64,000 nt of DNA from Protonemura montana (taxonomy: Eukaryota > Arthropoda > Insecta > Plecoptera > Nemouridae): positions 5,394,001-5,458,000 of the forward strand of contig CANOQG010000007.1 of the NCBI GenBank assembly GCA_947568835.1, read 5' to 3'. The position numbers and the translations under genes are program-made. This document shows, one piece after another, positions 1-35,719 of this stretch; the first letter of the stretch is position 1; each line of letters begins with the position of its first letter. Under the pieces are notes generated by a model. It made no database searches and was not told where the DNA came from. It was given only the letters and a program-made list of their open reading frames with translations.

Positions 1-1732
1 GTCCTGCCCCATGTCCTGTCCCATGTCCTGCCCCATGTCATGCCCCATGTCCTGCCCCATGTCCTGCCCCATGTCCCATGTCCTGCCTCATGTCCTGCCC
101 CTTGTCCTGTCCTATTTCCTGCCCCATGTCCTGCCCCATGTCCTGCCCCGTGTCCTGCCCCATGTCCTGCCCCATGTTCTGCCCCATGTCCTGCCCCATG
201 TCTTGCCCCATGTCCCATGTCCTGCTCCATGTCCTGCCCCATGTCCTGCCCCATGTCCTTCCCTATGTCCTGTCCCATGTCCTGCCCCATGTCCTGCCCC
301 ATGTCCTGCCCCATGTCCTGCTCCATGTCCTTCCCCTGTCCAGCCCCATGTCCCATGTCCTGCCCCATGTCCTGCCACATGTCCTGCCCCATGTCTTGCC
401 ATATGTCCTGTCCCATGTCCTGCCCCATGTCCTGCCCTATGTCCTGCCCCATGTCCTGCCCCATGTCCTGCTCCATGTCCTGCCCCATGTCTTGCCCCAT
501 GTCCCATGTCCTGCCTCATGTCCTGCCCCATGTCCTGCCCCATGTCCTGCCCCATGTCCTGCCCCATGTCCTGCCCCATGTCCTGCCCTATGTCCTGCCC
601 CATGTCCTGCCCCATGTCCTGCCCTATGTCCTGTCCCATGTCCTGTCCCATGTCCTGCCCTATGTCCTGTCCCATGTCCTGTCCCATGTCATGTCCCATG
701 TCCTGCTCCATGTCCTGCCCCATGTCCTGCCTCATGTCCTGCCCTATGTCCTGCCCCATGTCCTGCCCCATTTCCTGCTCCATGTCCTGCCCCATGTCCT
801 GCCCCATGTCCCATGTCATGCCCCAGGTCCTGCCCCATGTCCTGCCCCATGTCCTGCCCCATGTCCTGCCCCATGTCCTGCCCTATGTCCTGTCCCATGT
901 CCTGCCCCTTGTCCTGCCCCATGTCCTGCTACATGTCCTGCCCCATGTCCCATGTCCTGCCCCATTTCCTAACCCATGTCCTGCCCCATGTCCTGCCCCA
1001 TGTCCTGCCACATGTCCTGCCCCATGTCCTGCCCCATGTCCTGTCCCATGTCCTGCCCCATGTCCTGCCCCATGTCCTGCCCCTAGTCCTGCCCTATGTC
1101 CTGTCCCATGTCCTGCCCCATGTCCTGCCCCATGTCCTGTCCCATGTCCTGCCTCATGTCCTGCCCCATGTCCTGCCCTATGTTCTGCCCCATGTCCTGC
1201 CCCATGTCCTGTCCCATGTCCTGCCCCATGTCCTGCCCCATGTCCTGCCCCATGTCCTGCCCTATGTCCTGTCCTATGTCCTGCCCCATGTCCTGCCCCA
1301 TGTCCTGCCCTATGTCCTGTCCCATGTCCTGCCTCATGTCCTGCCCCATGTCCTGCCCTATGTCCTGCCCGATGTCCTGCCCCATGTCCTGCCCCATGTC
1401 CTGCCCTATGTCCTGCCCCATGTCCTGCCCTATGTCCTGTCCCATGTCCTGCTCCATGTCCTGCCCCATGTCCTGCCCCATGTCCCATGTCCTGTCCCAT
1501 GTCCTGTTCCATGTCCCATGTCCTGCCCCATGTCCTGCCCCTTATCCTGTCCCATTTCCTGCCCCATGTCCTACCCCATGTCCTGCCCCATGTCCTGCCC
1601 CATGTCCTGCCCCATGTCCTGCCTCATGTCCTGCCCCATGTCTTGCCCCATGTCCCATGTCCTGCCCCATGTCCTGCCCCATGTCCTGCCCCATGTCCTG
1701 CCCTATGTCCTGTCTTATGTCCTGCCCCATGT

Positions 1733-2055
1733 AATGCCCCATGTCCTGCTCCATGTCCTCCCCCTGTCCTGCCCTATGTCTTATGTCCTGCCCCATGTCC
1801 TGCCTCATGGCCTGCCCCATGTCCTGCCCTATGTCCTGTCCCATGTCCTGCCCCATTTCCTGCCCCATATCCTGCTCCATGTCCTGCCCCGTGTCCTGCC
1901 CCATGTCCCGCTCCATGTCCTCCCCCTGTCCTGCCTCATGTCCCATGTCCTGCCCCATGTCCCGCCCCATGTCCTGCCCCATGTCCTGTCCCATGTCCTG
2001 TCCCATGTCCTGCCCCATGTTTTGCCCCATGTCCTGTCCAATGTCCTGCCTCATG
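1733..2055 (-). repeat. Inverted B-type higher-order module in the left arm
   Basis: Read on the minus strand, this stretch has the ordered markers of a right-arm B module. It has an ATTGGACAGG unit, then GGGGCAAAACATGG, then GAGCGGGACAT beside GACAGGGGGAGG, then ATAAGACATAGGG, then GGCATTACATGG. The right-arm counterpart at about 6664-6984 has the same order and nearly the same length (about 320 bp). This shows the left arm is an inverted relative of the right arm and not an unrelated satellite. One difference is a GGCAGGCCATGAGG unit near 1800 in place of the usual GGACATGAGG. Confidence 0.8.
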
Positions 2056-2702
2056 TCCTGCCCCATGTCCTGCCCCATGTCCTGCCCCATGTCCTGCCCC
2101 ATGTCCTGTCCCATGTCCTGCCCCATGTCATGCCCCATGTCCTGCCCCATGTCCTGCCCCATGTCCCATGTCCTGCCCCATGTCCTGCCCTTTGTCCTGT
2201 CCCATTTCCTGCCCCATGTCCTGCCCCATGTCCTGCCCCATGTCCTGCCCCATGTCCTGCCCCATGTCCTTCCCTATGTCCTGTCCCATGTCCTGCCCCA
2301 TGTCCTGCCCATGTCCTGCTCCATGTCCTCCCCCTGTCCTGCCCCATGTCCCATGTCCTGCCCCATGTCCTGCCCCATGTCCTGCCCCATGTCCTGCCCT
2401 ATGTCTTGTCCCATGTCCTGCCCCATGTCCTGCCCCATGTCCTGCCCTATGTCCTGCCCCATGTCTTGCCCCATGTCCCATGTCCTGCCCCATGTCCTGC
2501 CCCATGTCCTGCCCCATGTCCTGCCCTTTGTCCTGCCCCATGTCCTGCCCCTTGTCCTTCCCCATGTCCTGCTCCATGTCCTGCCCCATGTCCCATGTCC
2601 TGCCCCATTTCCTGCCCCATGTCCTGCCCCATGTCCTGCCCCATGTCCTGCCATATGTCCTGTCCCATGTCCTGCCCCATGTCCTGCCCCATGTCCTGCC
2701 CC

Positions 2703-3490
2703 TAGTCCTGCCCTATGTCCTGTCCCATGTCCTGCCCCATTTCCTGCTCCATGTCCTGCCCCATGTCCTGCCCCATGTCCCATGTCATGCCCCAGGTCCT
2801 GCCCCATGTCCTGCCCCATGTCCTGCCCCTTGTCCTGCCCCATGTCCTGCTACATGTCCTGCCCCATGTCCCATGTCCTGCCCCATTTCCTAACCCATGT
2901 CCTGCCCCATGTCCTGCCCCATGTCCTGCCACATGTCCTGCCCCATGTCCTGCCCCATGTCCTGTCCCATGTCCTGCCCCATGTCCTGCCCCATGTCCTG
3001 CCCCTAGTCCTGCCCTATGTCCTGTCCCATGTCCTGCCCCATGTCCTGCCCCATGTCCTGTCCCATGTCCTGCCTCATGTCCTGCCCCATGTCCTGCCCT
3101 ATGTCCTGCCCCATGTCCTGCCCCATGTCCTGTCCCATGTCCTGCCCCATGTCCTGCCCCATGTCCTGCCCCATGTCCTGCCCTATGTCCTGTCCCATGT
3201 CCTGCCCCATGTCCTGCCCCATGTCCTGCCCTATGTCCTGCCCCATGTCTTGCCCCATGTCCCATGTCCTGCCCCATGTCCTGCCCCATGTCCTGCCCCA
3301 TGTCCTGCCCTATGTCCTGCCCCATGTCCTGCCCCATTTTCTGCTCCATGTCCCGCCCCATGTCCTGCCCCATGTCCCATGTCATGCCCCATGTCCTGCC
3401 CCATGTCCTGCCCCATGTCCTGTCCCATGTCCTGCTCCATGTCCTGCCCCATGACTTACCTCATGTCCCATGTCCTGCCTCATGTCCTGC
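2703..3490 (-). repeat. Left-arm higher-order repeat, copy 1 of a 966-bp period
   Basis: Rare units recur 966 bp downstream: TGCTACATG at 2851 and 3817, ATTTCCTAAC at 2885 and 3851, CCCCTAGTCC at about 3005 and 3971, and ATTTTCTGCTCC at 3336 and 4302. Upstream of about 2840 the offset falls to 918 bp (CAGGTCC 2793 and 3711, TAG 2703 and 3621), a difference of four 12-bp units gained or lost. Another relative begins near 824, at 2887 bp from the second copy. Copy 1 has GACTTACC near 3453 where copy 2 has GTCTTACC. Confidence 0.78.
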
Positions 3491-3620
3491 TCCATGTCCT
3501 GCCCCATGTCCCATGTCCTGCCCCATTTCCTGCCCCATGTCCTGCCCCATGTCCTGCCCCATGTCCTGCCATATGTCCTGTCCCATGTCCTGCCCCATGT
3601 CCTGCCCCATGTCCTGCCCC

Positions 3621-4456
3621 TAGTCCTGCCCTATGTCCTGTCCCATGTCCTGCCCCATTTCCTGCTCCATGTCCTGCCCCATGTCCTGCCCCATGTCCCA
3701 TGTCATGCCCCAGGTCCTGCCCCATGTCCTGCCCCATGTCCTGCCCCATGTCCTGCCCCATGTCCTGCCCTATGTCCTGTCCCATGTCCTGCCCCTTGTC
3801 CTGCCCCATGTCCTGCTACATGTCCTGCCCCATGTCCCATGTCCTGCCCCATTTCCTAACCCATGTCCTGCCCCATGTCCTGCCCCATGTCCTGCCACAT
3901 GTCCTGCCCCATGTCCTGCCCCATGTCCTGTCCCATGTCCTGCCCCATGTCCTGCCCCATGTCCTGCCCCTAGTCCTGCCCTATGTCCTGTCCCATGTCC
4001 TGCCCCATGTCCTGCCCCATGTCCTGTCCCATGTCCTGCCTCATGTCCTGCCCCATGTCCTGCCCTATGTCCTGCCCCATGTCCTGCCCCATGTCCTGTC
4101 CCATGTCCTGCCCCATGTCCTGCCCCATGTCCTGCCCCATGTCCTGCCCTATGTCCTGTCCCATGTCCTGCCCCATGTCCTGCCCCATGTCCTGCCCTAT
4201 GTCCTGCCCCATGTCTTGCCCCATGTCCCATGTCCTGCCCCATGTCCTGCCCCATGTCCTGCCCCATGTCCTGCCCTATGTCCTGCCCCATGTCCTGCCC
4301 CATTTTCTGCTCCATGTCCCGCCCCATGTCCTGCCCCATGTCCCATGTCATGCCCCATGTCCTGCCCCATGTCCTGCCCCATGTCCTGTCCCATGTCCTG
4401 CTCCATGTCCTGCCCCATGTCTTACCTCATGTCCCATGTCCTGCCTCATGTCCTGC
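3621..4456 (-). repeat. Left-arm higher-order repeat, copy 2 of a 966-bp period
   Basis: This is the partner of 2703-3490 at an offset of 966 bp (918 bp upstream of the four-unit indel). It carries the same TGCTACATG, TTCCTAACCC, CCCCTAGTCC and CATTTTCTGCTCC markers in the same order. After about 4456 the two copies diverge, and this one runs on into the junction-proximal stretch. Confidence 0.78.
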
Positions 4457-4728
4457 CCCATGTCCTGCCCCATATCCTGCCCCATGTCCTGCCCCATGTC
4501 CTGCCCCATGTCCTGTCCCATGTCCTGCCCAATGTCCTGCCCCATGTCCTGCTCCATGTCCTGCCCCATGTCCTGCCCCATGTCCTGCCCTATGTCCTGC
4601 CCCATGTCCTGCCCCATGTCCTGCCCCATGTCCTGCCCTATGTCCTGCCCCATGTCCTGCCCCATGTCCTGCCCTATGTCCTGTCCCATGTCCTGTCCCA
4701 TGTCATGTCCCATGTCCTGCTCCATGTT
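4300..4728 (-). repeat. Junction-proximal inverted C-type module
   Basis: On the minus strand, starting at the junction, the order is GAGCAGGACATGGGACATGAC, several standard units, ATTGGGCAGG, GGATATGGGG, GAGGTAAGACATGG, GGGGCATGACATGG and GAGCAGAAAATGG. Right-arm C modules, for example about 10290-10701, carry the same series at nearly the same spacing (about 411 against 426 bp). The base differences are few. This is direct evidence that the array was inverted within itself near 4729. Confidence 0.78.
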
Positions 4729-4742
4729 CACACACACACACA
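4729..4742. repeat. (CA)7 dinucleotide tract at the strand switch
   Basis: Seven CA dinucleotides follow CATGTT and run directly into TAGGGCAGGACAT. This is the only sequence in the window that does not derive from the 12-bp unit. It sits exactly where the array reverses orientation. The right-side flank matches a full right-arm unit series from its first base: CATAGGGCAGG at 4741 matches CATAGGGCAGG at 7539. It may be filler left by the break and joining event, or a microsatellite that predates the array. Confidence 0.95.
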
Positions 4743-7030
4743 TAGGGCAGGACATGGGGTAGGACATGGGGCAGGACATGGGGCAGGACATGGGACATGG
4801 GGCAAGACATGGGGCAGGACATGGGGCAGGACATGGGGCAGGACATGGGGCAGGACATGGGGCAGGACATGGGGCAGGAAATGGGGCAGGACATAGGGTA
4901 GGACATGAGGCAGGACATGGGACAGGACATGGGGCAGGACATGGGGCAGGACATGGGACAGGACATAGGGCAGGACATGGGGCAGGACATGGGGCAAAAC
5001 ATGGGGCAGGACATGGGACAGGACATGGGGCAGGACATTGGCCAGGCTATGGGGCAGGACATGGGGCAGGACATGAGGCAGGACATGGGACATGGGGAAA
5101 GACATGGGGCAGGACATGGGGCAGGACATGGGGCAGGACATGGGGCAGGACATGGGACAGGACATAGGGCAGGACATGGGGCAGGACATGGGGCAGGACA
5201 TGGGGCAGGACATGGGACAGGACATGGAGCAGGACATGGGGCAGGACATGGGGCAGGACATGGGACAGGACATAGGGAAGGACATGGGGCAGGACATGGG
5301 GCAGGACATGGGACAGGACATGGGACAGGACATAGGGCAGGACATGGGGCAGGACATGGGGCAGGACATAGGGCAGGACATGGGGCAGGACATGGGGCAG
5401 GACATGGGGCAGGACATGGGGCAGGACATAAGGCAGGACATTGGACAGGACATGGGGCAAAACATGGGGCAGGACATGGGACAGGACATGTTGCAGGACA
5501 TGGGGCAGGACATGGGGCAGGACATGGGGCAGGACATGGGACATGAGGCAGGACAGAGGGAGGACATGGAGCGGGACATGGGGCAGGACATGGGGCAGGA
5601 CATGGAGCAGGACATGGGGCAGGAAATGGGGCAGGACATGGGACAGGACATAGGGCAGGACATGGGGCAGGACATGAGGCAAGACATGGGGCAGGACATG
5701 GGACATAGGGCAGGACAGGGGAAGGACATGGAGCAGGACATGGGGCAGGACATGGGGCAGGACATAAGACAGGACATAGGGCAGGACATGGGGTAGGACA
5801 TGGGGCAGGACATGGGGCAGGACATGGGACATGGGGCAAGACATGGGGCAGGACATGGGGCAGGACATGGGGCAGGACATGGGGCAGGACATGGGGCAGG
5901 ACATGGGACATGGGGCAGGACATGGGGCAGGACATGGGGCAGGACATGGGGCAGGACATGGGGCAGGACATGGGGCAGGACATAGGGCAGGCCATGGGGC
6001 AGGACATGGGGCAGGACATGGAGCAGGACATGGGACATGACATGGGACAGGACATGGGGCAGGACATGGCGCAGGACATGGGGCAGGACATGGGGCAGGA
6101 CATGGGGCAGGACATAGGGCAGGACATGGGGTAGGACATGAGGCAGGACATGGGACAGGACATGGGGCAGGACATGGGGCAGGACATGGGACAGGACATA
6201 GGGCAGGACATGGGGCAGGACATGGGGCAAAACATGGGGCAGGACATGGGACAGGACATGGGGCAGGACATTGGCCAGGCTATGGGGCAGGACATGGGGC
6301 AGGACATGAGGCAGGACATGGGACATGGGGAAAGACATGGGGCAGGACATGGGGCAGGACATGGGGCAGGACATGGGGCAGGACATGGGACAGGACATAG
6401 GGCAGGACATGGGGCAGGACATGGGGCAGGACATGGGGCAGGACATGGGACAGGACATGGAGCAGGACATGGGGCAGGACATGGGGCAGGACATGGGACA
6501 GGACATAGGGAAGGACATGGGGCAGGACATGGGGCAGGACATGGGACAGGACATTGCACAGGACATAGGGCAGGACATGGGGCAGGACATGGGGCAGGAC
6601 ATAGGGCAGGACATGGGGCAGGACATGGGGCAGGACATGGGGCAGGACATGGGGCAGGACATGAGGCAGGACATTGGACAGGACATGGGGCAAAACATGG
6701 GGCAGGACATGGGACTGGACATGGGGCAGGACATGGGGCAGGACATGGGGCAGGACATGGGGCAGGACATGGGACATGAGGCAGGACAGGGGGAGGACAT
6801 GGAGCGGGACATGGGGCAGGACATGGGGCAGGACATGGAGCAGGACATGGGGCAGGAAATGGGGCAGGACATGAAACAGGACATAGGGCAGGACATGGGG
6901 CAGGACATGAGGCAGGACATGGGGCAGGACATAAGACATAGGGCAGGACAGGGGGAGGACATGGAGCAGGACATGGGGCATTACATGGGGCAGGACATAA
7001 GACAGGACATAGGGCAGGACATGGGGCAGG
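4741..7030 (+). repeat. A-B higher-order dimer, first copy (2798-bp pair)
   Basis: This begins exactly at the junction. A type A module starts at TTGGCC 5038 with GTTGC at 5490. A type B module starts at TTGGCC 6271 with TTGCAC at 6554. The two starts are 1,233 bp apart. The whole block recurs 2,798 bp downstream (5038 to 7836, 6271 to 9069, CATAGGGCAGG 4741 to 7539). One private base is GACAGAGGGAGG near 5553, where the other copy reads GACAGGGGGAGG. The copies part at about 7030. Confidence 0.82.
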
Positions 7031-7538
7031 ACATGGGGCAGGACATGGGGCAGGACATGGGACATGGGGCAAGACATGGGGCAGGACATGAGGCAGGACA
7101 TGGGGCAGGACATGGGGCAGGACATGGGGAAGGACATGGGGCAGGACATGGGGCAGGACATGGGACATGGGGCAGGACAGGGGGAGGACATGGAGCAGGA
7201 CATGGGGCAGGACATGGGGCAGGACATGGGGCAGGACATGGGGCAGGACATGGGGCAGGAAATGGGACAGGACAAAGGGCAGGACATGGGGCAGGACATG
7301 GGACATGGGGCAGGACATGGGGCAGGACATGGGGCATGACATGGGGCAGGACATGGGACAGGACATGGGGCAGGACATGGGGCAGGACATGGGGCAGGAC
7401 ATGGGGCAGGACATGAGGCAGGACATGGGACAGGACATGGGGCAGGACATGGGGCAGGACATGGGACATGGAGCAGGACATGGGGCAGGACATGGAGCAG
7501 GACATGGGGCAGGACATGGGGCAGGACATAAGACAGGA
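7031..7538 (+). repeat. C-derived spacer units between the two A-B dimers
   Basis: This stretch carries the tail of a C-type module: GGGGAAGGACAT, GACAGGGGGAGG, GGAAATGGGACAGGACAAAG, GGGGCATGACAT, then ATAAGACAGG before the next dimer. It lacks the GCAGAAAATGG marker, so the module is partial. The same tail follows C modules at about 10830-11250 and 30010-30430. Confidence 0.65.
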
Positions 7539-9828
7539 CATAGGGCAGGACATGGGGTAGGACATGGGGCAGGACATGGGGCAGGACATGGGACATGGGG
7601 CAAGACATGGGGCAGGACATGGGGCAGGACATGGGGCAGGACATGGGGCAGGACATGGGGCAGGACATGGGGCAGGAAATGGGGCAGGACATAGGGTAGG
7701 ACATGAGGCAGGACATGGGACAGGACATGGGGCAGGACATGGGGCAGGACATGGGACAGGACATAGGGCAGGACATGGGGCAGGACATGGGGCAAAACAT
7801 GGGGCAGGACATGGGACAGGACATGGGGCAGGACATTGGCCAGGCTATGGGGCAGGACATGGGGCAGGACATGAGGCAGGACATGGGACATGGGGAAAGA
7901 CATGGGGCAGGACATGGGGCAGGACATGGGGCAGGACATGGGGCAGGACATGGGACAGGACATAGGGCAGGACATGGGGCAGGACATGGGGCAGGACATG
8001 GGGCAGGACATGGGACAGGACATGGAGCAGGACATGGGGCAGGACATGGGGCAGGACATGGGACAGGACATAGGGAAGGACATGGGGCAGGACATGGGGC
8101 AGGACATGGGACAGGACATGGGACAGGACATAGGGCAGGACATGGGGCAGGACATGGGGCAGGACATAGGGCAGGACATGGGGCAGGACATGGGGCAGGA
8201 CATGGGGCAGGACATGGGGCAGGACATAAGGCAGGACATTGGACAGGACATGGGGCAAAACATGGGGCAGGACATGGGACAGGACATGTTGCAGGACATG
8301 GGGCAGGACATGGGGCAGGACATGGGGCAGGACATGGGACATGAGGCAGGACAGGGGGAGGACATGGAGCGGGACATGGGGCAGGACATGGGGCAGGACA
8401 TGGAGCAGGACATGGGGCAGGAAATGGGGCAGGACATGGGACAGGACATAGGGCAGGACATGGGGCAGGACATGAGGCAAGACATGGGGCAGGACATGGG
8501 ACATAGGGCAGGACAGGGGAAGGACATGGAGCAGGACATGGGGCAGGACATGGGGCAGGACATAAGACAGGACATAGGGCAGGACATGGGGTAGGACATG
8601 GGGCAGGACATGGGGCAGGACATGGGACATGGGGCAAGACATGGGGCAGGACATGGGGCAGGACATGGGGCAGGACATGGGGCAGGACATGGGGCAGGAC
8701 ATGGGACATGGGGCAGGACATGGGGCAGGACATGGGGCAGGACATGGGGCAGGACATGGGGCAGGACATGGGGCAGGACATAGGGCAGGCCATGGGGCAG
8801 GACATGGGGCAGGACATGGAGCAGGACATGGGACATGACATGGGACAGGACATGGGGCAGGACATGGCGCAGGACATGGGGCAGGACATGGGGCAGGACA
8901 TGGGGCAGGACATAGGGCAGGACATGGGGTAGGACATGAGGCAGGACATGGGACAGGACATGGGGCAGGACATGGGGCAGGACATGGGACAGGACATAGG
9001 GCAGGACATGGGGCAGGACATGGGGCAAAACATGGGGCAGGACATGGGACAGGACATGGGGCAGGACATTGGCCAGGCTATGGGGCAGGACATGGGGCAG
9101 GACATGAGGCAGGACATGGGACATGGGGAAAGACATGGGGCAGGACATGGGGCAGGACATGGGGCAGGACATGGGGCAGGACATGGGACAGGACATAGGG
9201 CAGGACATGGGGCAGGACATGGGGCAGGACATGGGGCAGGACATGGGACAGGACATGGAGCAGGACATGGGGCAGGACATGGGGCAGGACATGGGACAGG
9301 ACATAGGGAAGGACATGGGGCAGGACATGGGGCAGGACATGGGACAGGACATTGCACAGGACATAGGGCAGGACATGGGGCAGGACATGGGGCAGGACAT
9401 AGGGCAGGACATGGGGCAGGACATGGGGCAGGACATGGGGCAGGACATGGGGCAGGACATGAGGCAGGACATTGGACAGGACATGGGGCAAAACATGGGG
9501 CAGGACATGGGACTGGACATGGGGCAGGACATGGGGCAGGACATGGGGCAGGACATGGGGCAGGACATGGGACATGAGGCAGGACAGGGGGAGGACATGG
9601 AGCGGGACATGGGGCAGGACATGGGGCAGGACATGGAGCAGGACATGGGGCAGGAAATGGGGCAGGACATGAAACAGGACATAGGGCAGGACATGGGGCA
9701 GGACATGAGGCAGGACATGGGGCAGGACATAAGACATAGGGCAGGACAGGGGGAGGACATGGAGCAGGACATGGGGCATTACATGGGGCAGGACATAAGA
9801 CAGGACATAGGGCAGGACATGGGGCAGG
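7539..9828 (+). repeat. A-B higher-order dimer, second copy (2798-bp pair)
   Basis: This is the partner of 4741-7030. The A marker is at 7836 with GTTGC at 8288, and the B marker at 9069 with TTGCAC at 9352, again 1,233 bp apart. After about 9828 it departs from the first copy. A 174-bp local repeat follows, in which GGCATTACATGG occurs at about 9777 and again at 9951. Confidence 0.82.
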
Positions 9829-11960
9829 AAATGGGGCAGGACATGGGACAGGACATAGGGCAGGACATGGGGCAGAACATGAGGCAGGACATAGAGCAGG
9901 ACATAAGACATAGGGCAGGACAGGGGGAGGACATGGAGCAGGACATGGGGCATTACATGGGGCAGGACATAAGACAGGACATAGGGCAGGACATGGGGCA
10001 GGACATGGGGCAGGACATGGGGCAGGACATGGGACATGGGGCAAGACATGGGGCAGGACATGAGGCAGGACATGGGGCAGGACATGGGGCAGGACATGGG
10101 GCAGGACATGGGGTAGGACATGGGGCAGGAAATGGGACAGGACAAGGGGCAGGACATGGGGCAGGACATGGGACATGGGGCAGGACATGGGGCACTACAT
10201 GGGGCAGGACATGGGGCAGGACATGGGGCAGGACATGGGGCAGGACATGGGGCAGGACATAGGGCAGGACATGGGGCAGGACATGGGGCAGGACATGGAG
10301 CAGGACATGGGACATGACATGGGACAGGACATGGGGCAGGACATGGGGCAGGACATAGGGAAGGACATAGGGCAGGACATGGGGCAGGACATGGGGCAGG
10401 ACATGGGGCAGGACATAGGGCAGGACATGGGGCAGGACATGGGGCAGGACATGGAGCAGGACATGGGGCAGGACATTGGGCAGGACATGGGACCGGACAT
10501 GGGGCAGGACATGGGGCAGGACATGGGGCAGGATATGGGGCAGGACATGGGGCAGGACATGAGGCAGGACATGGGACATGAGGTAAGACATGGAGCAGGA
10601 CATGGAGCAGGACATGGGACAGGACATGGGGCAGGACATGGGGCAGGACATGGGGCATGACATGGGACATGGGGCAGGACATGGGGTGGAACATGGAGCA
10701 GAAAATGGGGCACGACATGGGGCAGGACATAGGGCAGGACATGGGGCAGGACATGGGGCAGGACATGGGGCAGGACATGGGACATGGGGCAAGACATGGG
10801 GCAGGACATAGGGCAGGACATGGGGCAGGACATGGGGAAGGACATGGGGCAGGACATGGGGCAGGACATGGGACATGGGGCAGGACAGGGGGAGGACATG
10901 GAGCAGGACATGGGGCAGGACATGGGGCAGGACATGGGGCAGGACATGGGGCAGGACATGGGGCAGGAAATGGGACAGGACAAAGGGCAGGACATGGGGC
11001 AGGACATGGGACATGGGGCAGGACATGGGGCAGGACATGGGGCATGACATGGGGCAGGACATGGGACAGGACATGGGGCAGGACATGGGGCAGGACATGG
11101 GGCAGGACATGGGGCAGGACATGAGGCAGGACATGGGACAGGACATGGGGCAGGACATGGGGCAGGACATGGGACATGGAGCAGGACATGGGGCAGGACA
11201 TGGAGCAGGACATGGGGCAGGACATGGGGCAGGACATAAGACAGGACATAGGGCAGGACATGGGGTAGGACATGGGGCAGGACATGGGGCAGGACATGGG
11301 ACATGGGGCAAGACATGGGGCAGGACATGGGGCAGGACATGGGGCAGGACATGGGGCAGGACATGGGGCAGGACATGGGGCAGGAAATGGGGCAGGACAT
11401 AGGGTAGGACATGAGGCAGGACATGGGACAGGACATGGGGCAGGACATGGGGCAGGACATGGGACAGGACATAGGGCAGGACATGGGGCAGGACATGGGG
11501 CAAAACATGGGGCAGGACATGGGACAGGACATGGGGCAGGACATTGGCCAGGCTATGGGGCAGGACATGGGGCAGGACATGAGGCAGGACATGGGACATG
11601 GGGAAAGACATGGGGCAGGACATGGGGCAGGACATGGGGCAGGACATGGGGCAGGACATGGGACAGGACATAGGGCAGGACATGGGGCAGGACATGGGGC
11701 AGGACATGGGGCAGGACATGGGACAGGACATGGAGCAGGACATGGGGCAGGACATGGGGCAGGACATGGGACAGGACATAGGGAAGGACATGGGGCAGGA
11801 CCTGGGGCAGGACATGGGACAGGACATGGGACAGGACATAGGGCAGGACATGGGGCAGGACATGGGGCAGGACATAGGGCAGGACATGGGGCAGGACATG
11901 GGGCAGGACATGGGGCAGGACATGGGGCAGGACATAAGGCAGGACATTGGACAGGACATG
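9829..11960 (+). repeat. C-type module followed by an A module
   Basis: A 174-bp local duplication (GGCATTACAT at 9777 and 9951) opens this stretch. A C module follows, with GCAGAAAATGG at about 10701, then an A marker at 11544, 843 bp later. The same 843-bp C-to-A spacing occurs at 29873-30716, 32383-33226, 37141-37984 and 39507-40350. The offset of 19,172 bp to the 29.6-31.2 kb copy holds for GCAGAAAATGG, TTGGCC and GTTGC. Private bases are GACCGG near 10495 and GGACCTGGGG near 11811. Confidence 0.72.
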
Positions 11961-12610
11961 GGGCAAAACATGGGGCAGGACATGGGACAGGACATGTTGC
12001 AGGACATGGGGCAGGACATGGGGCAGGACATGGGGCAGGACATGGGACATGAGGCAGGACAGGGGGAGGACATGGAGCGGGACATGGGGCAGGACATGGG
12101 GCAGGACATGGAGCAGGACATGGGGCAGGAAATGGGGCAGGACATGGGACAGGACATAGGGCAGGACATGGGGCAGGACATGAGGCAAGACATGGGGCAG
12201 GACATGGGACATAGGGCAGGACAGGGGAAGGACATGGAGCAGGACATGGGGCAGGACATGGGGCAGGACATAAGACAGGACATAGGGCAGGACATGGGGT
12301 AGGACATGGGGCAGGACATGGGGCAGGACATGGGACATGGGGCAAGACATGGGGCAGGACATGGGGCAGGACATGGGGCAGGACATGGGGCAGGACATGG
12401 GGCAGGACATGGGACATGGGGCAGGACATGGGGCAGGACATGGGGCAGGACATGGGGCAGGACATGGGGCAGGACATGGGGCAGGACATAGGGCAGGCCA
12501 TGGGGCAGGACATGGGGCAGGACATGGAGCAGGACATGGGACATGACATGGGACAGGACATGGGGCAGGACATGGCGCAGGACATGGGGCAGGACATGGG
12601 GCAGGACATG
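11960..12610 (+). repeat. 650-bp tandem duplication, copy 1
   Basis: The GTTGC unit at 11996 recurs at 12646, and GGCGCAGG near 12574 recurs near 13224, both exactly 650 bp apart. The second copy starts at GGGGCAAAACATGG near 12610, where ordinary units run abruptly into the interior of an A module. 650 is not a multiple of 12 because each copy includes 7-bp short units. Confidence 0.8.
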
Positions 12611-14735
12611 GGGCAAAACATGGGGCAGGACATGGGACAGGACATGTTGCAGGACATGGGGCAGGACATGGGGCAGGACATGGGGCAGGACATGGGACAT
12701 GAGGCAGGACAGGGGGAGGACATGGAGCGGGACATGGGGCAGGACATGGGGCAGGACATGGAGCAGGACATGGGGCAGGAAATGGGGCAGGACATGGGAC
12801 AGGACATAGGGCAGGACATGGGGCAGGACATGAGGCAAGACATGGGGCAGGACATGGGACATAGGGCAGGACAGGGGAAGGACATGGAGCAGGACATGGG
12901 GCAGGACATGGGGCAGGACATAAGACAGGACATAGGGCAGGACATGGGGTAGGACATGGGGCAGGACATGGGGCAGGACATGGGACATGGGGCAAGACAT
13001 GGGGCAGGACATGGGGCAGGACATGGGGCAGGACATGGGGCAGGACATGGGGCAGGACATGGGACATGGGGCAGGACATGGGGCAGGACATGGGGCAGGA
13101 CATGGGGCAGGACATGGGGCAGGACATGGGGCAGGACATAGGGCAGGCCATGGGGCAGGACATGGGGCAGGACATGGAGCAGGACATGGGACATGACATG
13201 GGACAGGACATGGGGCAGGACATGGCGCAGGACATGGGGCAGGACATGGGGCAGGACATGGGGCAGGACATAGGGCAGGACATGGGGTAGGACATGAGGC
13301 AGGACATGGGACAGGACATGGGGCAGGACATGGGGCAGGACATGGGACAGGACATAGGGCAGAACATGGGGCAGGACATGGGGCAAAACATGGGGCAGGA
13401 CATGGGACAGGACATGGGGCAGGACATTGGCCAGGCTATGGGGCAGGACATGGGGCAGGACATGAGGCAGGACATGGGACATGGGGAAAGACATGGGGCA
13501 GGACATGGGGCAGGACATGGGGCAGGACATGGGGCAGGACATGGGACAGGACATAGGGCAGGACATGGGGCAGGACATGGGGCAGGACATGGGGCAGGAC
13601 ATGGGACAGGACATGGAGCAGGACATGGGGCAGGACATGGGGCAGGACATGGGACAGGACATAGGGAAGGACATGGGGCAGGACATGGGGCAGGACATGG
13701 GACAGGACATTGCACAGGACATAGGGCAGGACATGGGGCAGGACATGGGGCAGGACATAGGGCAGGACATGGGGCAGGACATGGGGCAGGACATGGGGCA
13801 GGACATGGGGCAGGACATGAGGCAGGACATTGGACAGGACATGGGGCAAAACATGGGGCAGGACATGGGACTGGACATGGGGCAGGACATGGGGCAGGAC
13901 ATGGGGCAGGACATGGGGCAGGACATGGGACATGAGGCAGGACAGGGGGAGGACATGGAGCGGGACATGGGGCAGGACATGGGGCAGGACATGGAGCAGG
14001 ACATGGGGCAGGAAATGGGGCAGGACATGAAACAGGACATAGGGCAGGACATGGGGCAGGACATGAGGCAGGACATGGGGCAGGACATAAGACATAGGGC
14101 AGGACAGGGGGAGGACATGGAGCAGGACATGGGGCATTACATGGGGCAGGACATAAGACAGGACATAGGGCAGGACATGGGGCAGGACATGGGGCAGGAC
14201 ATGGGGCAGGACATGGGACATGGGGCAAGACATGGGGCAGGACATGAGGCAGGACATGGGGCAGGACATGGGGCAGGACATGGGGCAGGACATGGGGTAG
14301 GACATGGGGCAGGAAATGGGACAGGACAAGGGGCAGGACATGGGGCAGGACATGGGACATGGGGCAGGACATGGGGCAGGACATGGGGCAGGACATGGGG
14401 CAGGACATGGGGCAGGACATGGGGCAGGACATGGGGCAGGACATAGGGCAGGACATGGGGCAGGACATGGGGCAGGACATGGAGCAGGACATGGGACATG
14501 ACATGGGACAGGACATGGGGCAGGACATGGGGCAGGACATGGGGAAGGACATAGGGCAGGACATGGGGCAGGACATGGGGCAGGACATGGGGCAGGACAT
14601 AGGGCAGGACATGGGGCAGGACATGGGGCAGGACAGGGAGCAGGACATGGGGCAGGACATTGGGCAGGACATGGGACAGGACATGGGGCAGGACATGGGG
14701 CAGGACATGGGGCAGGATATGGGGCAGGACATGGG
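12610..14735 (+). repeat. B-module segment, copy 1 (7274 and about 29508-bp family)
   Basis: The segment includes TTGGCC at 13427 and TTGCAC at 13710. It recurs at 19884-22009 with an offset of 7,274 bp that holds for GTTGC, TTGGCC and two private variants: GCAGAACATGG near 13361 and 20635, and GACAGGGAGCAGG near 14632 and 21906. A third copy starts at about 42119 (29,507-29,509 bp). Two one-base losses in that copy explain the drift of its offset. Confidence 0.82.
12611..13260 (+). repeat. 650-bp tandem duplication, copy 2
   Basis: This is the partner of the preceding 650 bp. It carries GTTGC at 12646 and GGCGCAGG near 13224, then continues into a B module with its marker at 13427. This copy, not the first, is the one later carried to 19.9 kb at an offset of 7,274 bp (GTTGC 12646 to 19920). 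Confidence 0.8.
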
Positions 14736-16344
14736 GCATGACATGGGACATGGGGCAGGACATGGGGTGGAACATGGAGCAGAAAATGGGGCACGACATG
14801 GGGCAGGACATAGGGCAGGACATGGTGCAGGACATGGGGCAGGACATGGGGCAGGACATGGGACATGGGGCAAGACATGGGGCAGGACATAGGGCAGGAC
14901 ATGGGGCAGGACATGGGGCAGGACATGGGACAGGACATAGGGCAGGACATGGGGAAGGACATGGGGCAGGACATGGGGCAGGACATGGGACATGGGGCAG
15001 GACAGGGGGAGGACATGGAGCAGGACATGGGGCAGGACATGGGGCAGGACATGGGGCAGGACATGGGGCAGGACATGGGGTAGGAAATGGGACAGGACAA
15101 AGGGCAGGACATGGGACATGGGGCAGGACATGGGGCAGGACATGGGGTATGACATGGGGCAGGACATGGGACAGGACATGGGGCAGGACATGGGGCAGGA
15201 CATGGGGCAGGACATGGGGCAGGACATGAGGCAGGACATGGGACAGGACATGGGGCAGGACATGGGGCAGGACATGGGACATGGAGCAGGACATGGGGCA
15301 GGACATGGAGCAGGACATGGGGCAGGACATGGGGCAGGACATAAGACAGGACATAGGGCAGGACATGGGGTAGGACATGGGGCAGGACATGGGGCAGGAC
15401 ATGGGACATGGGGCAAGACATGGGGCAGGACATGGGGCAGGACATGGGGCAGGACATGGGGCAGGACATGGGGCAGGACATGGGGCAGGACATGGGGCAG
15501 GACATGGGACATGAGGCAGGACAGGGGGAGGACATGGAGCGGGACATGGGGCAGGACATGGGGCAGGACATGGAGCAGGACATGGGGCAGGAAATGGGGC
15601 AGGACATGGGGCATGACATGGGACATGGGGCAGGACATGGGGTGGAACATGGAGCAGAAAATGGGGCACGACATGGGGCAGGACATAGGGCAGGACATGG
15701 TGCAGGACATGGGGCAGGACATGGGGCAGGACATGGGACATGAGGTAAGACATGGGGCAGGACATGGAGCAGGACATGGGACAGGACATGGGGCAGGACA
15801 TGGGGCAGGACATGGGGCATGACATGGGACATGGGGCAGGACATGGGGTGGAACATGGAGCAGAAAATGGGGCACGACATGGGGCAGGACATAGGGCAGG
15901 ACATGGTGCAGGACATGGGGCAGGACATGGGGCAGGACATGGGACATGGGGCAAGACATGGGGCAGGACATAGGGCAGGACATGGGGCAGGACATGGGGC
16001 AGGACATGGGACAGGACATAGGGCAGGACATGGGGAAGGACATGGGGCAGGACATGGGGCAGGACATGGGACATGGGGCAGGACAGGGGGAGGACATGGA
16101 GCAGGACATGGGGCAGGACATGGGGCAGGACATGGGGCAGGACATGGGGCAGGACATGGGGTAGGAAATGGGACAGGACAAAGGGCAGGACATGGGACAT
16201 GGGGCAGGACATGGGGCAGGACATGGGGCATGACATGGGGCAGGACATGGGACAGGACATGGGGCAGGACATGGGGCAGGACATGGGGCAGGACATGGGG
16301 CAGGACATGAGGCAGGACATGGGACAGGACATGGGGCAGGACAT
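14736..16344 (+). repeat. Multiplied C-type modules
   Basis: Three GCAGAAAATGG markers lie close together at about 14782, 15657 and 15863. The first and third belong to a 1,081-bp repeat, because GTAGGAAATGGG also recurs from 15081 to 16162. The middle one is a partial insert 206 bp before the third. A private GGGGTATGACAT near 15148 replaces the usual GGGGCATGACAT. From about 15730 the sequence is the start of the 6,296-bp pair. Confidence 0.72.
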
Positions 16345-17993
16345 GGGGCAGGACATGGGACATGGAGCAGGACATGGGGCAGGACATGGAGCAGGACATG
16401 GGGCAGGACATGGGGCAGGACATAAGACAGGACATAGGGCAGGACATGGGGTAGGACATGGGGCAGGACATGGGGCAGGACATGGGACATGGGGCAAGAC
16501 ATGGGGCAGGACATGGGGCAGGACATGGGGCAGGACATGGGGCAGGACATGGGGCAGGACATGGGGCAGGACATGGGGCAGGACATGGGACATGAGGCAG
16601 GACAGGGGGAGGACATGGAGCGGGACATGGGGCAGGACATGGGGCAGGACATGGAGCAGGACATGGGGCAGGAAATGGGGCAGGACATGGGACAGGACAT
16701 AGGGCAGGACATGGGGCAGGACATGAGGCAAGACATGGGGCAGGACATGGGATATAGGGCAGGACAGGGGAAGGACATGGAGCAGGACATGGGGCAGGAC
16801 ATGGGGCAGGACATAAGACAGGACATAGGGCAGGACATGGGGTAGGACATGGGGCAGGACATGGGGCAGGACATGGGGCAGGACATGGGGCAGGACATAG
16901 GGCAGGACATGGGGCAGGACATGGGGCAGGACATGGGGCAGGACATGGGGCAGGACATAAGGCAGGACATTGGACAGGACATGGGGCAAAACATGGGGCA
17001 GGACATGGGACAGGACATGGGGCAGGACATGGGGCAGGACATGGGGCAGGACATGGGGCAGGACATGGGACATGAGGCAGGACAGGGGGAGGACATGGAG
17101 CGGGACATGGGGCAGGACATGGGGCAGGACATGGAGCAGGACATGGGGCAGGAAATGGGGCAGGACATGGGACAGGACATAGGGCAGGACATGGGGCAGG
17201 ACATGAGGCAAGACATGGGGCAGGACATGGGATATAGGGCAGGACAGGGGAAGGACATGGAGCAGGACATGGGGCAGGACATGGGGCAGGACATAAGACA
17301 GGACATAGGGCAGGACATGGGGTAGGACATGGGGCAGGACATGGGGCAGGACATGGGACATGGGGCAAGACATGGGGCAGGACATGGGGCAGGACATGGG
17401 GCAGGACATGGGGCAGGACATGGGGCAGGACATGGGACATGGGGCAGGACATGGGGCAGGACATGGGGCAGGACATGGGACAGGACATGGAGCAGGACAT
17501 GGGGCAGGACATGGGGCAGGACATGGGACAGGACATAGGGAAGGACATGGGGCAGGACATGGGGCAGGACATGGGACAGGACATGGGACAGGACATAGGG
17601 CAGGACATGGGGCAGGACATGGGGCAGGACATAGGGCAGGACATGGGGCAGGACATGGGGCAGGACATGGGGCAGGACATGGGGCAGGACATGAGGCAGG
17701 ACATTGGACAGGACATGGGGCAAAACATGGGGCAGGACATGGGACTGGACATGGGGCAGGACATGGGGCAGGACATGGGGCAGGACATGGGGCAGGACAT
17801 GGGACATGAGGCAGGACAGGGGGAGGACATGGAGCGGGACATGGGGCAGGACATGGGGCAGGACATGGAGCAGGACATGGGGCAGGAAATGGGGCAGGAG
17901 ATGGGACAGGACATAGGGCAGGACATGGGGCAGGACATGAGGCAGGACATAGGGCAGGACATAAGACATAGGGCAGGACAGGGGGAGGACATG
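15730..17993 (+). repeat. Segment copy 1 of a 6296-bp pair
   Basis: Markers match 22026-24289 at a constant offset of 6,296 bp: GCAGAAAATGG 15863 and 22159, GTAGGAAATGGG 16162 and 22458, GGGATATAGGG 16751 and 23047, and 17231 and 23527. Inside it is a 480-bp tandem repeat, exactly forty 12-bp units, marked by the two GGGATATAGGG units. The pair ends near 17993, where the second copy has GGACATGGGGC in place of GGACATGGAGC. Confidence 0.78.
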
Positions 17994-18866
17994 GAGCAGG
18001 ACATGGGGCATTACATGGGGCAGGACATAAGACAGGACATAGGGCAGGACATGGGGCAGGACATGGGGCAGGACATGGGGCAGGACATGGGACATGGGGC
18101 AAGACATGGGGCAGGACATGAGGCAGGACATGGGGCAGGACATGGGGCAGGACATGGGGCAGGACATGGGGTAGGACATGGGGCAGGAAATGGGACAGGA
18201 CAAGGGGCAGGACATGGGGCAGGACATGGGACATGGGGCAGGACATGGGGCAGGACATGGGGCAGGACATGGGGCAGGACATGGGGCAGGACATGGGGCA
18301 GGACATGGGGCAGGACATAGGGCAGGACATGGGGCAGGACATGGGGCAGGACATGGAGCAGGACATGGGACATGACATGGGACAGGACATGGGGCAGGAC
18401 ATGGAGCAGGACATGGGGCAGGACATTGGGCAGGACATGGGACAGGACATGGGGCAGGACATGGGGCAGGACATGGGGCAGGATATGGGGCAGGACATGG
18501 GGCAGGACATGAGGCAGGACATGGGACATGAGGTAAGACATGGAGCAGGACATGGAGCAGGACATGGGACAGGACATGGGGCAGGACATGGGGCAGGACA
18601 TGGGGCATGACATGGGACATGGGGCAGGACATGGGGTGGAACATGGAGCAGAAAATGGGGCACGACATGGGGCAGGACATAGGGCAGGACATGGGGCAGG
18701 ACATGGGGCAGGACATGGGGCAGGACATGGGACATGGGGCAAGACATGGGGCAGGACATAGGGCAGGACATGGGGCAGGACATGGGGAAGGACATGGGGC
18801 AGGACATGGGGCAGGACATGGGACATGGGGCAGGACAGGGGGAAGACATGGAGCAGGACATGGGGC
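16345..18866 (+). repeat. Segment copy 1 of an 8928-bp pair
   Basis: This matches 25273-27794 at 8,928 bp for GGGATATAGGG (16751 to 25679, 17231 to 26159) and GCAGAAAATGG (18651 to 27579). It overlaps the preceding segment, so the 16.3-18.0 kb sequence exists in three copies in this window. Divergence at about 18866 is where this copy has GGGGCATGACAT and the other continues with standard units. Confidence 0.77.
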
Positions 18867-19580
18867 ATGACATGGGGCAGGACATGGGACAGGACATGGG
18901 GCAGGACATGGGGCAGGACATGGGGCAGGACATGGGGCAGGACATGAGGCAGGACATGGGACAGGACATGGGGCAGGACATGGGGCAGGACATGGGACAT
19001 GGAGCAGGACATGGGGCAGGACATGGAGCAGGACATGGGGCAGGACATGGGGCAGGACATAAGACAGGACATAGGGCAGGACATGGGGTAGGACATGGGG
19101 CAGGACATGGGGCAGGACATGGGACATGGGGCAAGACATGGGGCAGGACATGGGGCAGGACATGGGGCAGGACATGGGGCAGGACATGGGGCAGGACATG
19201 GGGCAGGACATGGGGCAGGACATGGGACATGAGGCAGGACAGGGGGAGGACATGGAGCGGGACATGGGGCAGGACATGGGGCAGGACATGGAGCAGGACA
19301 TGGGGCAGGAAATGGGGCAGGACATGGGACAGGACATAGGGCAGGACATGGGGCAGGACATGAGGCAAGACATGGGGCAGGACATGGGATATAGGGCAGG
19401 ACAGGGGAAGGATATGGAGCAGGACATGGGGCAGGACATGGGGCAGGACATAAGACAGGACATAGGGCAGGACATGGGGTAGGACATGGGGCAGGACATG
19501 GGGCAGGACATGGGGCAGGACATGGGGCAGGACATAGGGCAGGACATGGGGCAGGACATGGGGCAGGACATGGGGCAGGA
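18088..19580 (+). repeat. Segment copy 1 of a 6327/6291-bp pair
   Basis: GCAGAAAATGG at 18651 and GGGGCATGACAT at about 18865 recur at 24978 and 25192 (6,327 bp). GGGATATAGGG at 19388 recurs at 25679 (6,291 bp). The 36-bp change equals three units missing from the second copy near 25260. The segment leads into a further A module with GTTGC at 19920. Confidence 0.75.
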
Positions 19581-19883
19581 CATGGGACAGGACATAGGGC
19601 AGGACATGGGGCAGGACATGGGGCAGGACATGGGGCAGGACATGGGACAGGACATGGAGCAGGACATGGGGCAGGACATGGGGCAGGACATGGGACAGGA
19701 CATAGGGAAGGACATGGGGCAGGACATGGGGCAGGACATGGGACAGGACATGGGACAGGACATAGGGCAGGACATGGGGCAGGACATGGGGCAGGACATA
19801 GGGCAGGACATGGGGCAGGACATGGGGCAGGACATGGGGCAGGACATGGGGCAGGACATAAGGCAGGACATTGGACAGGACAT

Positions 19884-22009
19884 GGGGCAAAACATGGGGC
19901 AGGACATGGGACAGGACATGTTGCAGGACATGGGGCAGGACATGGGGCAGGACATGGGGCAGGACATGGGACATGAGGCAGGACAGGGGGAGGACATGGA
20001 GCGGGACATGGGGCAGGACATGGGGCAGGACATGGAGCAGGACATGGGGCAGGAAATGGGGCAGGACATGGGACAGGACATAGGGCAGGACATGGGGCAG
20101 GACATGAGGCAAGACATGGGGCAGGACATGGGACATAGGGCAGGACAGGGGAAGGACATGGAGCAGGACATGGGGCAGGACATGGGGCAGGACATAAGAC
20201 AGGACATAGGGCAGGACATGGGGTAGGACATGGGGCAGGACATGGGGCAGGACATGGGACATGGGGCAAGACATGGGGCAGGACATGGGGCAGGACATGG
20301 GGCAGGACATGGGGCAGGACATGGGGCAGGACATGGGACATGGGGCAGGACATGGGGCAGGACATGGGGCAGGACATGGGGCAGGACATGGGGCAGGACA
20401 TGGGGCAGGACATAGGGCAGGCCATGGGGCAGGACATGGGGCAGGACATGGAGCAGGACATGGGACATGACATGGGACAGGACATGGGGCAGGACATGGC
20501 GCAGGACATGGGGCAGGACATGGGGCAGGACATGGGGCAGGACATAGGGCAGGACATGGGGTAGGACATGAGGCAGGACATGGGACAGGACATGGGGCAG
20601 GACATGGGGCAGGACATGGGACAGGACATAGGGCAGAACATGGGGCAGGACATGGGGCAAAACATGGGGCAGGACATGGGACAGGACATGGGGCAGGACA
20701 TTGGCCAGGCTATGGGGCAGGACATGGGGCAGGACATGAGGCAGGACATGGGACATGGGGAAAGACATGGGGCAGGACATGGGGCAGGACATGGGGCAGG
20801 ACATGGGGCAGGACATGGGACAGGACATAGGGCAGGACATGGGGCAGGACATGGGGCAGGACATGGGGCAGGACATGGGACAGGACATGGAGCAGGACAT
20901 GGGGCAGGACATGGGGCAGGACATGGGACAGGACATAGGGAAGGACATGGGGCAGGACATGGGGCAGGACATGGGACAGGACATTGCACAGGACATAGGG
21001 CAGGACATGGGGCAGGACATGGGGCAGGACATAGGGCAGGACATGGGGCAGGACATGGGGCAGGACATGGGGCAGGACATGGGGCAGGACATGAGGCAGG
21101 ACATTGGACAGGACATGGGGCAAAACATGGGGCAGGACATGGGACTGGACATGGGGCAGGACATGGGGCAGGACATGGGGCAGGACATGGGGCAGGACAT
21201 GGGACATGAGGCAGGACAGGGGGAGGACATGGAGCGGGACATGGGGCAGGACATGGGGCAGGACATGGAGCAGGACATGGGGCAGGAAATGGGGCAGGAC
21301 ATGAAACAGGACATAGGGCAGGACATGGGGCAGGACATGAGGCAGGACATGGGGCAGGACATAAGACATAGGGCAGGACAGGGGGAGGACATGGAGCAGG
21401 ACATGGGGCATTACATGGGGCAGGACATAAGACAGGACATAGGGCAGGACATGGGGCAGGACATGGGGCAGGACATGGGGCAGGACATGGGACATGGGGC
21501 AAGACATGGGGCAGGACATGAGGCAGGACATGGGGCAGGACATGGGGCAGGACATGGGGCAGGACATGGGGTAGGACATGGGGCAGGAAATGGGACAGGA
21601 CAAGGGGCAGGACATGGGGCAGGACATGGGACATGGGGCAGGACATGGGGCAGGACATGGGGCAGGACATGGGGCAGGACATGGGGCAGGACATGGGGCA
21701 GGACATGGGGCAGGACATAGGGCAGGACATGGGGCAGGACATGGGGCAGGACATGGAGCAGGACATGGGACATGACATGGGACAGGACATGGGGCAGGAC
21801 ATGGGGCAGGACATGGGGAAGGACATAGGGCAGGACATGGGGCAGGACATGGGGCAGGACATGGGGCAGGACATAGGGCAGGACATGGGGCAGGACATGG
21901 GGCAGGACAGGGAGCAGGACATGGGGCAGGACATTGGGCAGGACATGGGACAGGACATGGGGCAGGACATGGGGCAGGACATGGGGCAGGATATGGGGCA
22001 GGACATGGG
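19884..22009 (+). repeat. B-module segment, copy 2 (7274-bp pair)
   Basis: This is the partner of 12610-14735. It has GTTGC at 19920, GCAGAACATGG near 20635, TTGGCC at 20701, TTGCAC at 20984 and GACAGGGAGCAGG near 21906. Two shared private variants show descent from one copying event. After 22009 it goes on through GAGGTAAGACATGG, which the first copy lacks at this position. Confidence 0.82.
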
Positions 22010-22025
22010 GCAGGACATGAGGCAG

Positions 22026-24289
22026 GACATGGGACATGAGGTAAGACATGGGGCAGGACATGGAGCAGGACATGGGACAGGACATGGGGCAGGACATGGG
22101 GCAGGACATGGGGCATGACATGGGACATGGGGCAGGACATGGGGTGGAACATGGAGCAGAAAATGGGGCACGACATGGGGCAGGACATAGGGCAGGACAT
22201 GGTGCAGGACATGGGGCAGGACATGGGGCAGGACATGGGACATGGGGCAAGACATGGGGCAGGACATAGGGCAGGACATGGGGCAGGACATGGGGCAGGA
22301 CATGGGACAGGACATAGGGCAGGACATGGGGAAGGACATGGGGCAGGACATGGGGCAGGACATGGGACATGGGGCAGGACAGGGGGAGGACATGGAGCAG
22401 GACATGGGGCAGGACATGGGGCAGGACATGGGGCAGGACATGGGGCAGGACATGGGGTAGGAAATGGGACAGGACAAAGGGCAGGACATGGGACATGGGG
22501 CAGGACATGGGGCAGGACATGGGGCATGACATGGGGCAGGACATGGGACAGGACATGGGGCAGGACATGGGGCAGGACATGGGGCAGGACATGGGGCAGG
22601 ACATGAGGCAGGACATGGGACAGGACATGGGGCAGGACATGGGGCAGGACATGGGACATGGAGCAGGACATGGGGCAGGACATGGAGCAGGACATGGGGC
22701 AGGACATGGGGCAGGACATAAGACAGGACATAGGGCAGGACATGGGGTAGGACATGGGGCAGGACATGGGGCAGGACATGGGACATGGGGCAAGACATGG
22801 GAAAGGACATGGGGCAGGACATGGGGCAGGACATGGGGCAGGACATGGGGCAGGACATGGGGCAGGACATGGGGCAGGACATGGGACATGAGGCAGGACA
22901 GGGGGAGGACATGGAGCGGGACATGGGGCAGGACATGGGGCAGGACATGGAGCAGGACATGGGGCAGGAAATGGGGCAGGACATGGGACAGGACATAGGG
23001 CAGGACATGGGGCAGGACATGAGGCAAGACATGGGGCAGGACATGGGATATAGGGCAGGACAGGGGAAGGACATGGAGCAGGACATGGGGCAGGACATGG
23101 GGCAGGACATAAGACAGGACATAGGGCAGGACATGGGGTAGGACATGGGGCAGGACATGGGGCAGGACATGGGGCAGGACATGGGGCAGGACATAGGGCA
23201 GGACATGGGGCAGGACATGGGGCAGGACATGGGGCAGGACATGGGGCAGGACATAAGGCAGGACATTGGACAGGACATGGGGCAAAACATGGGGCAGGAC
23301 ATGGGACAGGACATGGGGCAGGACATGGGGCAGGACATGGGGCAGGACATGGGGCAGGACATGGGACATGAGGCAGGACAGGGGGAGGACATGGAGCGGG
23401 ACATGGGGCAGGACATGGGGCAGGACATGGAGCAGGACATGGGGCAGGAAATGGGGCAGGACATGGGACAGGACATAGGGCAGGACATGGGGCAGGACAT
23501 GAGGCAAGACATGGGGCAGGACATGGGATATAGGGCAGGACAGGGGAAGGACATGGAGCAGGACATGGGGCAGGACATGGGGCAGGACATAAGACAGGAC
23601 ATAGGGCAGGACATGGGGTAGGACATGGGGCAGGACATGGGGCAGGACATGGGACATGGGGCAAGACATGGGGCAGGACATGGGGCAGGACATGGGGCAG
23701 GACATGGGGCAGGACATGGGGCAGGACATGGGACATGGGGCAGGACATGGGGCAGGACATGGGGCAGGACATGGGACAGGACATGGAGCAGGACATGGGG
23801 CAGGACATGGGGCAGGACATGGGACAGGACATAGGGAAGGACATGGGGCAGGACATGGGGCAGGACATGGGACAGGACATGGGACAGGACATAGGGCTGG
23901 ACATGGGGCAGGACATGGGGCAGGACATAGGGCAGGACATGGGGCAGGACATGGGGCAGGACATGGGGCAGGACATGGGGCAGGACATGAGGCAGGACAT
24001 TGGACAGGACATGGGGCAAAACATGGGGCAGGACATGGGACTGGACATGGGGCAGGACATGTGGCAGGACATGGGGCAGGACATGGGGCAGGACATGGGA
24101 CATGAGGCAGGACAGGGGGAGGACATGGAGCGGGACATGGGGCAGGACATGGGGCAGGACATGGAGCAGGACATGGGGCAGGAAATGGGGCAGGAGATGG
24201 GACAGGACATAGGGCAGGACATGGGGCAGGACATGAGGCAGGACATAGGGCAGGACATAAGACATAGGGCAGGACAGGGGGAGGACATG
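22026..24289 (+). repeat. Segment copy 2 of the 6296-bp pair
   Basis: This is the partner of 15730-17993, including the 480-bp tandem repeat (GGGATATAGGG at 23047 and 23527). Private changes are GGGAAAGGACAT near 22800, GGGCTGGACAT near 23897 and CATGTGGCAGG near 24060. From 24289 to 24415 a short local duplication of about 103 bp repeats GGGACATGGGGCAAGAC at about 24313 and 24416. Confidence 0.78.
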
Positions 24290-24414
24290 GGGCAGGACAT
24301 GGGGCAGGACATGGGACATGGGGCAAGACATGGGGCAGGACATGAGGCAGGACATGGGGCAGGACATGGGGCAGGACATGGGGCAGGACATGGGGTAGGA
24401 CATGGGGCAGGAAA

Positions 24415-35555: not shown

Positions 35556-35719
35556 GACATAAGACAGGACATAGGGCAGGACATGGGGTAGGACATGGGG
35601 CAGGACATGGGGCAGGACATGGGACATGGGGCAAGACATGGGGCAGGACATGGGGCAGGACATGGGGCAGGACATGGGGCAGGACATGGGGCAGGACATG
35701 GGACATGGGGCAGGACATG
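35556..35719 (+). repeat. Connector of generic units
   Basis: This is a short stretch of A-tail units (ATAAGACAGG, GGGGTAGG, the 7-bp short unit, GGGGCAAGACAT) joining two long duplicated blocks. It carries no private marker, so its origin cannot be assigned. Confidence 0.6.

Follow-up and report, generated by a model that had tools for sequence, protein, structure and literature searches.

Large arrays of a short, G+C-rich unit of 11–12 bp are known from the dodeca satellite of Drosophila, and the monomer of alpha satellite has a length of ~171 bp. Inverted blocks in satellite arrays have already been described, and the surrounding repeats often make it difficult to pin down the join. Human and primate alpha-satellite arrays contain strand-inverted blocks that were checked with ultra-long reads (PMC11062924). 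The satellites of Tribolium madens show macro-dyad symmetries ranging from kilobases to tens of kilobases, with inversion sites conserved over thousands of copies (PMC13081366).

The array described here is found in the assembly of Protonemura montana (258 Mb in 34 contigs), on contig C18 (5,535,519 bp). The window, i.e. the whole stretch of 64,000 bp that was analyzed, corresponds to C18:5394001-5458000. The dodeca satellite is similar in unit length and G+C richness and is reported to have a different sequence. Megabase arrays, higher-order families and large reversed blocks are common to alpha satellite and the C18 array (PMC11062924). The alpha-satellite arrays of the same source are centromeric with read-checked inversions (PMC11062924), whereas the C18 array has a 12-bp unit and is described from the assembly. 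T. madens and C18 both represent arthropod arrays with repeated changes of orientation, and the near-identical recurring inversion sites of the former are comparable to a C18 junction present at 2.54, 3.31 and 3.48 Mb (PMC13081366). Unlike the sites given there, the junction in the window is unique and contains new CA sequence (PMC13081366). It is not a conserved inversion site of the Tribolium type, as it occurs once in the assembly; the other C18 junction is present in three copies.

The strand switch

The first-pass annotation of the window reported a flip of unit polarity across 14 bp of CA repeat. The flip is evident from the sequence itself. The unit reads ATGTCCTGCCCC up to position 4728 and GGGGCAGGACAT from 4743 on, separated by CACACACACACACA (Table 1). 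TRF divides the window into two arrays (1-4727 and 4740-64000), and the GC skew and the AT skew both reverse their sign at the switch.

Table 1. Features at and around the strand switch (positions refer to the window).
Feature	Position	Strand	Basis or remark
C-rich 12-bp satellite (ATGTCCTGCCCC)	1..4728	-	TRF, skew; right end of ~0.80-Mb C block (limits by sampling)
C flank	4301..4728	+	39 other listed copies, C18 and C12
(CA)7 at strand switch	4729..4742	.	sole strongly non-unit tract of the window
(AC)5, ten bases outside both unbroken flanks	4730..4739	.	comparison with unbroken copies
G-rich 12-bp satellite (GGGGCAGGACAT), edge-type family	4740..64000	+	TRF, samples
G flank	4743..5556	+	814 bp identical to copies starting at 7541, 37689 and 40055

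Non-unit sequence was sought with 24-mers taken every 2 bp across the window and scored by their edit distance to the 12-bp unit. Distances of at least 9 are confined to 24-mers starting at 4719-4729, and a distance of 8 is also found at 9893 and 9895. In substance, the tract is the only non-unit sequence in 64 kb, as the first reading of the window had it. Eighteen AC/CA runs of at least 4 bp are present in the window and a single one of these, the junction, is longer than 4 bp. Neither CACACA nor TGTGTG occurs in ~132.6 kb of other array loci (some of these overlap; L001 and L006 were excluded, as they carry the window's own junction). Even when as many as 3 mismatches are allowed, the 258-Mb assembly contains the junction sequence a single time, and the reversed control yielded no occurrence.

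Flanks of the junction

Both flanks exist elsewhere in unbroken form. For the C flank, at least 39 other copies match at 100% (rounded) over 427-428 bp, including local copies at 5.3828, 5.3868 and 5.3933 Mb of C18. A copy at 1.7406 Mb of C18 (L045) crosses the break site unbroken. With the break site of this copy as query, 42 full-length places are listed at 91-100% identity; 40 reach at least 98%, and the window's own locus is absent among the 42. Because the break-spanning matches cover the whole query at ≥98%, the unbroken C copies have no space for a 10-bp insert. The unbroken C family reads CATGTTCTGCCCC where the window has CATGTTCACAC. On the other side, the first 100 bp of the G flank (4743-4842) have 45 other exact copies in the window, each of which is preceded by GACAGGACA. 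CACACA was sought within 70 bp upstream of these copies and found in none of the 45.

The match to the C family ends at 4729 (C of the C flank) and the match to the G family begins at 4740 (ACA, 4740-4742), which leaves (AC)5 in between. Thus, the tract has exactly the extent first given for it, but only ~10 of its 14 bp are foreign to the flanks. If the flank ends were joined directly, the product would already read CACA. For this reason, the tract is likely to be either filler from repair or a newly formed microsatellite, and thus a consequence of the switch rather than its cause. On each side of the junction there is one other copy with zero differences, over 814 bp on the G side and over 496 bp (428 + 68) on the C side, which points to a young event or to recent homogenization of the surroundings. 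The signal of youth could reflect such homogenization instead.

The flanks had also been described as not being reverse complements of each other, and this is right at the level of families, judged by shared 40-mers. Between 39 and 50% of the 40-mers of the reverse-complemented C flank are common to each of 12 G-side pieces, with the adjacent piece (44%) no higher. The first G piece has 71-98% of its 40-mers in common with the other 11 G pieces. Short adjacent stretches reach up to 92% ungapped identity over 150 bp via the common unit. A fold-back or hairpin was rejected, since the adjacent G side is no closer to the reverse complement of the C flank than the 11 distant pieces. Kinship with the junction at 2.54, 3.31 and 3.48 Mb had been hinted at by a shared CACATAGGG and by initial alignments. 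The junction is nevertheless not a degraded copy of it, because the two flanks belong to different families and each follows its family exactly as far as the break.

The array on C18

The extent of the array was determined from sampled pieces rather than from a full reading, with 79 C18 stretches besides the window. Array sequence makes up 61 of these (41.7 kb) and the remaining 18 are contig ends, array boundaries or parts of one internal island. The sampling suggests that ~5.47 Mb of C18 is 12-bp satellite array. It begins between 9.2 and 11.0 kb and ends at ~5,489.95 kb (~5,489,951), up to which the edge-type samples continue. The left contig end consists of a 35-bp repeat and the right one of a 30-bp-type repeat followed by a short non-repeat tail.

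Comparison of the window with a phage collection gave no match. Published titles on this 12-bp repeat were not found in a search whose text did not include the unit sequence itself. More stretches of the same 12-bp families lie at C12:16.91-17.57 Mb, among them copies of the C flank that are nearly identical to that of the window. A longer complex repeat with few 12-bp units plus CAGGACATCCACCATATCCTGCCCAAAATCCCGTCG occupies C12:18.134-18.224 Mb and C17:1.02-1.16 Mb. An exact pattern of six telomere-type TTAGG units has 6912 forward and 6102 reverse matches in the genome, the listed ones including places deep inside C1; five TTTAGGG units give 2 overlapping matches at one place in the genome. 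One sampled locus (L027) contains an open reading frame that was read by the analyst as TIA-1-like. The mitochondrial contig (C34) has the gene order cox1-trnL2-cox2 (code 5). Together, these features speak against a plant host, and the proteins and gene order were read as those of a pancrustacean arthropod. Nuclear copies of cox1 are located at C4:5,760,925-5,777,755, and one of them scores equal to the mitochondrial contig; this copy is either a recent NUMT or an assembly join.

Other strand switches

Nine strand switches were found on C18. Five are C-to-G, near 2.5374, 2.6766, 3.3125, 3.4834 and 5.3987 Mb, the last being that of the window. Three of the four G-to-C switches are direct (near 2.5560, 3.3200 and 4.5970 Mb), and the fourth passes through a 6.8-kb island, with the G array ending at ~3,020,096 and C units returning after ~3,026,862. 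The blocks then follow one another as C G C G (island) C G C G C G, which makes the alternation complete. Block sizes range from ~7.5 kb to 2.5 Mb. One unit is thus present on both strands in contiguous blocks, and higher-order families are common to blocks of opposite orientation. The search patterns demand exact motifs within 60 bp, and extra paired switches could escape them; the exact C-to-G pattern does not catch the window's own switch. Inspection of the other C18 junctions that were read showed no CA tract beyond CACA.

Switching recurs, as the nine alternating switches indicate. Over 241 bp, the 3.4834-Mb junction recurs without any difference at 3.3124 Mb, as its reverse complement, and with 97% identity at 2.5374 Mb. 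Because this junction has further copies in both orientations, at least one switch was duplicated.

The island (3,020,096-3,026,862; L107, L108, L117, L118 and L125) is composed of the 30-bp-type repeat, as on the right of the array. In the 97 bp upstream and 99 bp downstream that were available for comparison, its boundary with the G array does not differ from the one at the right end of the array near 5,489,954. The copy of the 30-bp-type repeat at the right end covers ~45 kb by sampling and the internal copy is compact. C18 thus resembles a tandem of two modules, both of which are terminated by a 30-bp-type flank. The edge-type family was found at 0.011-0.58 Mb in C orientation and at 2.85-3.02 and 5.40-5.49 Mb in G orientation, which is a mirror layout in the samples.

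Outside C18, the stricter C-to-G and G-to-C patterns list no switch of this array. A broad C-to-G pattern gave 78 + 78 matches and most of those listed belong to the longer complex repeat of C12 and C17. Among the matches listed there is one switch of the 12-bp unit on C16, at 21.972 Mb. Here (C16:21,971,501-21,972,500, L126) the 12-bp unit forms a degenerate array, which changes from C to G across CCCCATG-AATTGACCGAAGTA-GGGGCAGGACAT. The spacer AATTGACCGAAGTA comprises 14 bp of non-unit sequence without CA, and therefore short non-unit filler of other kinds does occur. The same C16 array holds a short CCTAACCTAACCT stretch. It looks older than the C18 array and is possibly an old relative of it. 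A common cause of the C18 and C16 switches is possible.

Discussion

The junction in the window is probably the scar of an illegitimate end joining inside the ~5.47-Mb satellite array. Each parent family occurs many times in intact form, the two breakpoints can be placed to the base, and the flanks meet at ten unexplained bases in a junction that has no second occurrence in the assembly. The sequence is therefore best read as a rearrangement junction with short filler. From the assembly, we infer that the junction is present in the organism. One partner in the join would have been a C-oriented piece that belongs to one higher-order family and ends in ...CATGTTC, the other a G-oriented piece of the different, edge-type family starting with ACATAGGG. 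Blunt joining would yield CACA, which may then have gained ACs during end repair by iterated templated synthesis, or may have slipped up to (CA)7; either route would fit. Polymerase theta-type end joining is known for junctions with short templated or repetitive filler. The window junction is similar in its filler of ~10 bp, which may have been copied from the last 2-3 bases of one flank, and a pathway of this type is conceivable. No function would be needed, and the switch would mark turnover of the array.

Less firmly, the C-oriented block that ends at the junction may have arisen by inverted copying and not by a clean flip at its present site. Families preceding 4.597 Mb (sampled at 4.3 and 4.597 Mb) appear to recur inverted inside the block at 5.1-5.3 Mb, which favors the inverted copy. 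This comparison used sparse pieces, mostly of 200-1700 bp, and shared k-mers. The breakpoint had first been taken for that of an inversion with short filler. A rearrangement junction with filler and base-resolved flanks is retained from that reading, whereas the switch is not singular and a reciprocal junction was not found among the C18 junctions.

A simple inversion in place of the ~0.80-Mb segment between 4.597 and 5.3987 Mb, with filler at its window end, is unlikely. The segment, block 9 of C18, is C-oriented at the sampled points and lies between G blocks, as such an inversion would have it. One of two family-level predictions also agrees, since the C side at 4.597 Mb belongs to the edge-type family like the G side of the window. 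The other does not: the G side at 4.597 Mb has 21% of its 60-mers in common with the C flank of the window, compared to 66% with the sample at 0.87 Mb. At the base level, the partner junction should have a C side starting with CCTGTCTTATG, but this sequence is absent from the join in all three direct G-to-C junctions. The predicted 16-mer is present ~220 and 425 bp from the start of the C side at 4.597 Mb, whereas the G-end 20-mer occurs in all three loci and is thus uninformative. These sequences thus give no support to a simple flip in place, although later deletions could have erased the reciprocal junction.

That two pieces of the array were wrongly joined at the switch, as an artefact of assembly or reads, is more doubtful still. 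The extreme repetitiveness of the array, whose G part in the window contains exact repeats as long as 2,289 bp, would invite such errors. However, the join holds ten bases absent from the rest of the array sequence examined and its flanks have no hairpin palindrome, both of which disfavor a mis-join in the assembly graph or a hairpin-read artefact. Furthermore, the flank families agree with their surroundings on either side of the junction, and similar switches recur, one of them in three copies. Long CA repeats adopt Z-DNA and are unstable, which would suit a CA microsatellite that came first and served as the fragile site where the array broke and flipped, but this order of events is highly improbable given that the examined unbroken copies of both flank families lack CA, that the ~132.6 kb of other array loci are free of CACACA and that the C16 switch and the other C18 switches read are without a CA tract.

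Beyond the end-joining scar itself, the 5.5-Mb array may represent a giant dyad, in which switches are a regular outcome of array growth, with the window junction very recent and that of C16 ancient. This wider reading is tentative and unlikely. It derives from the mirrored edge family at both outer ends and from the two G arms, which end at the same boundary to the 30-bp-type repeat. The switches would be made, for example, by inverted template switching during break-induced replication, and the repair filler in the window would still be growing into a microsatellite. If this holds true, the mirror layout might act as a putative (peri)centromeric scaffold.

The case exemplifies a known phenomenon clearly and at base resolution; it differs from those of primates and the beetle in the 12-bp unit and in a unique junction with new sequence. 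Because dozens of intact copies of both parent families persist, the scar is legible base by base, and what was added can be told apart from the flanks. The junction is therefore a candidate for a microsatellite that originated where a rearrangement joined two sequences, and it provides a unique marker inside a multi-megabase satellite.
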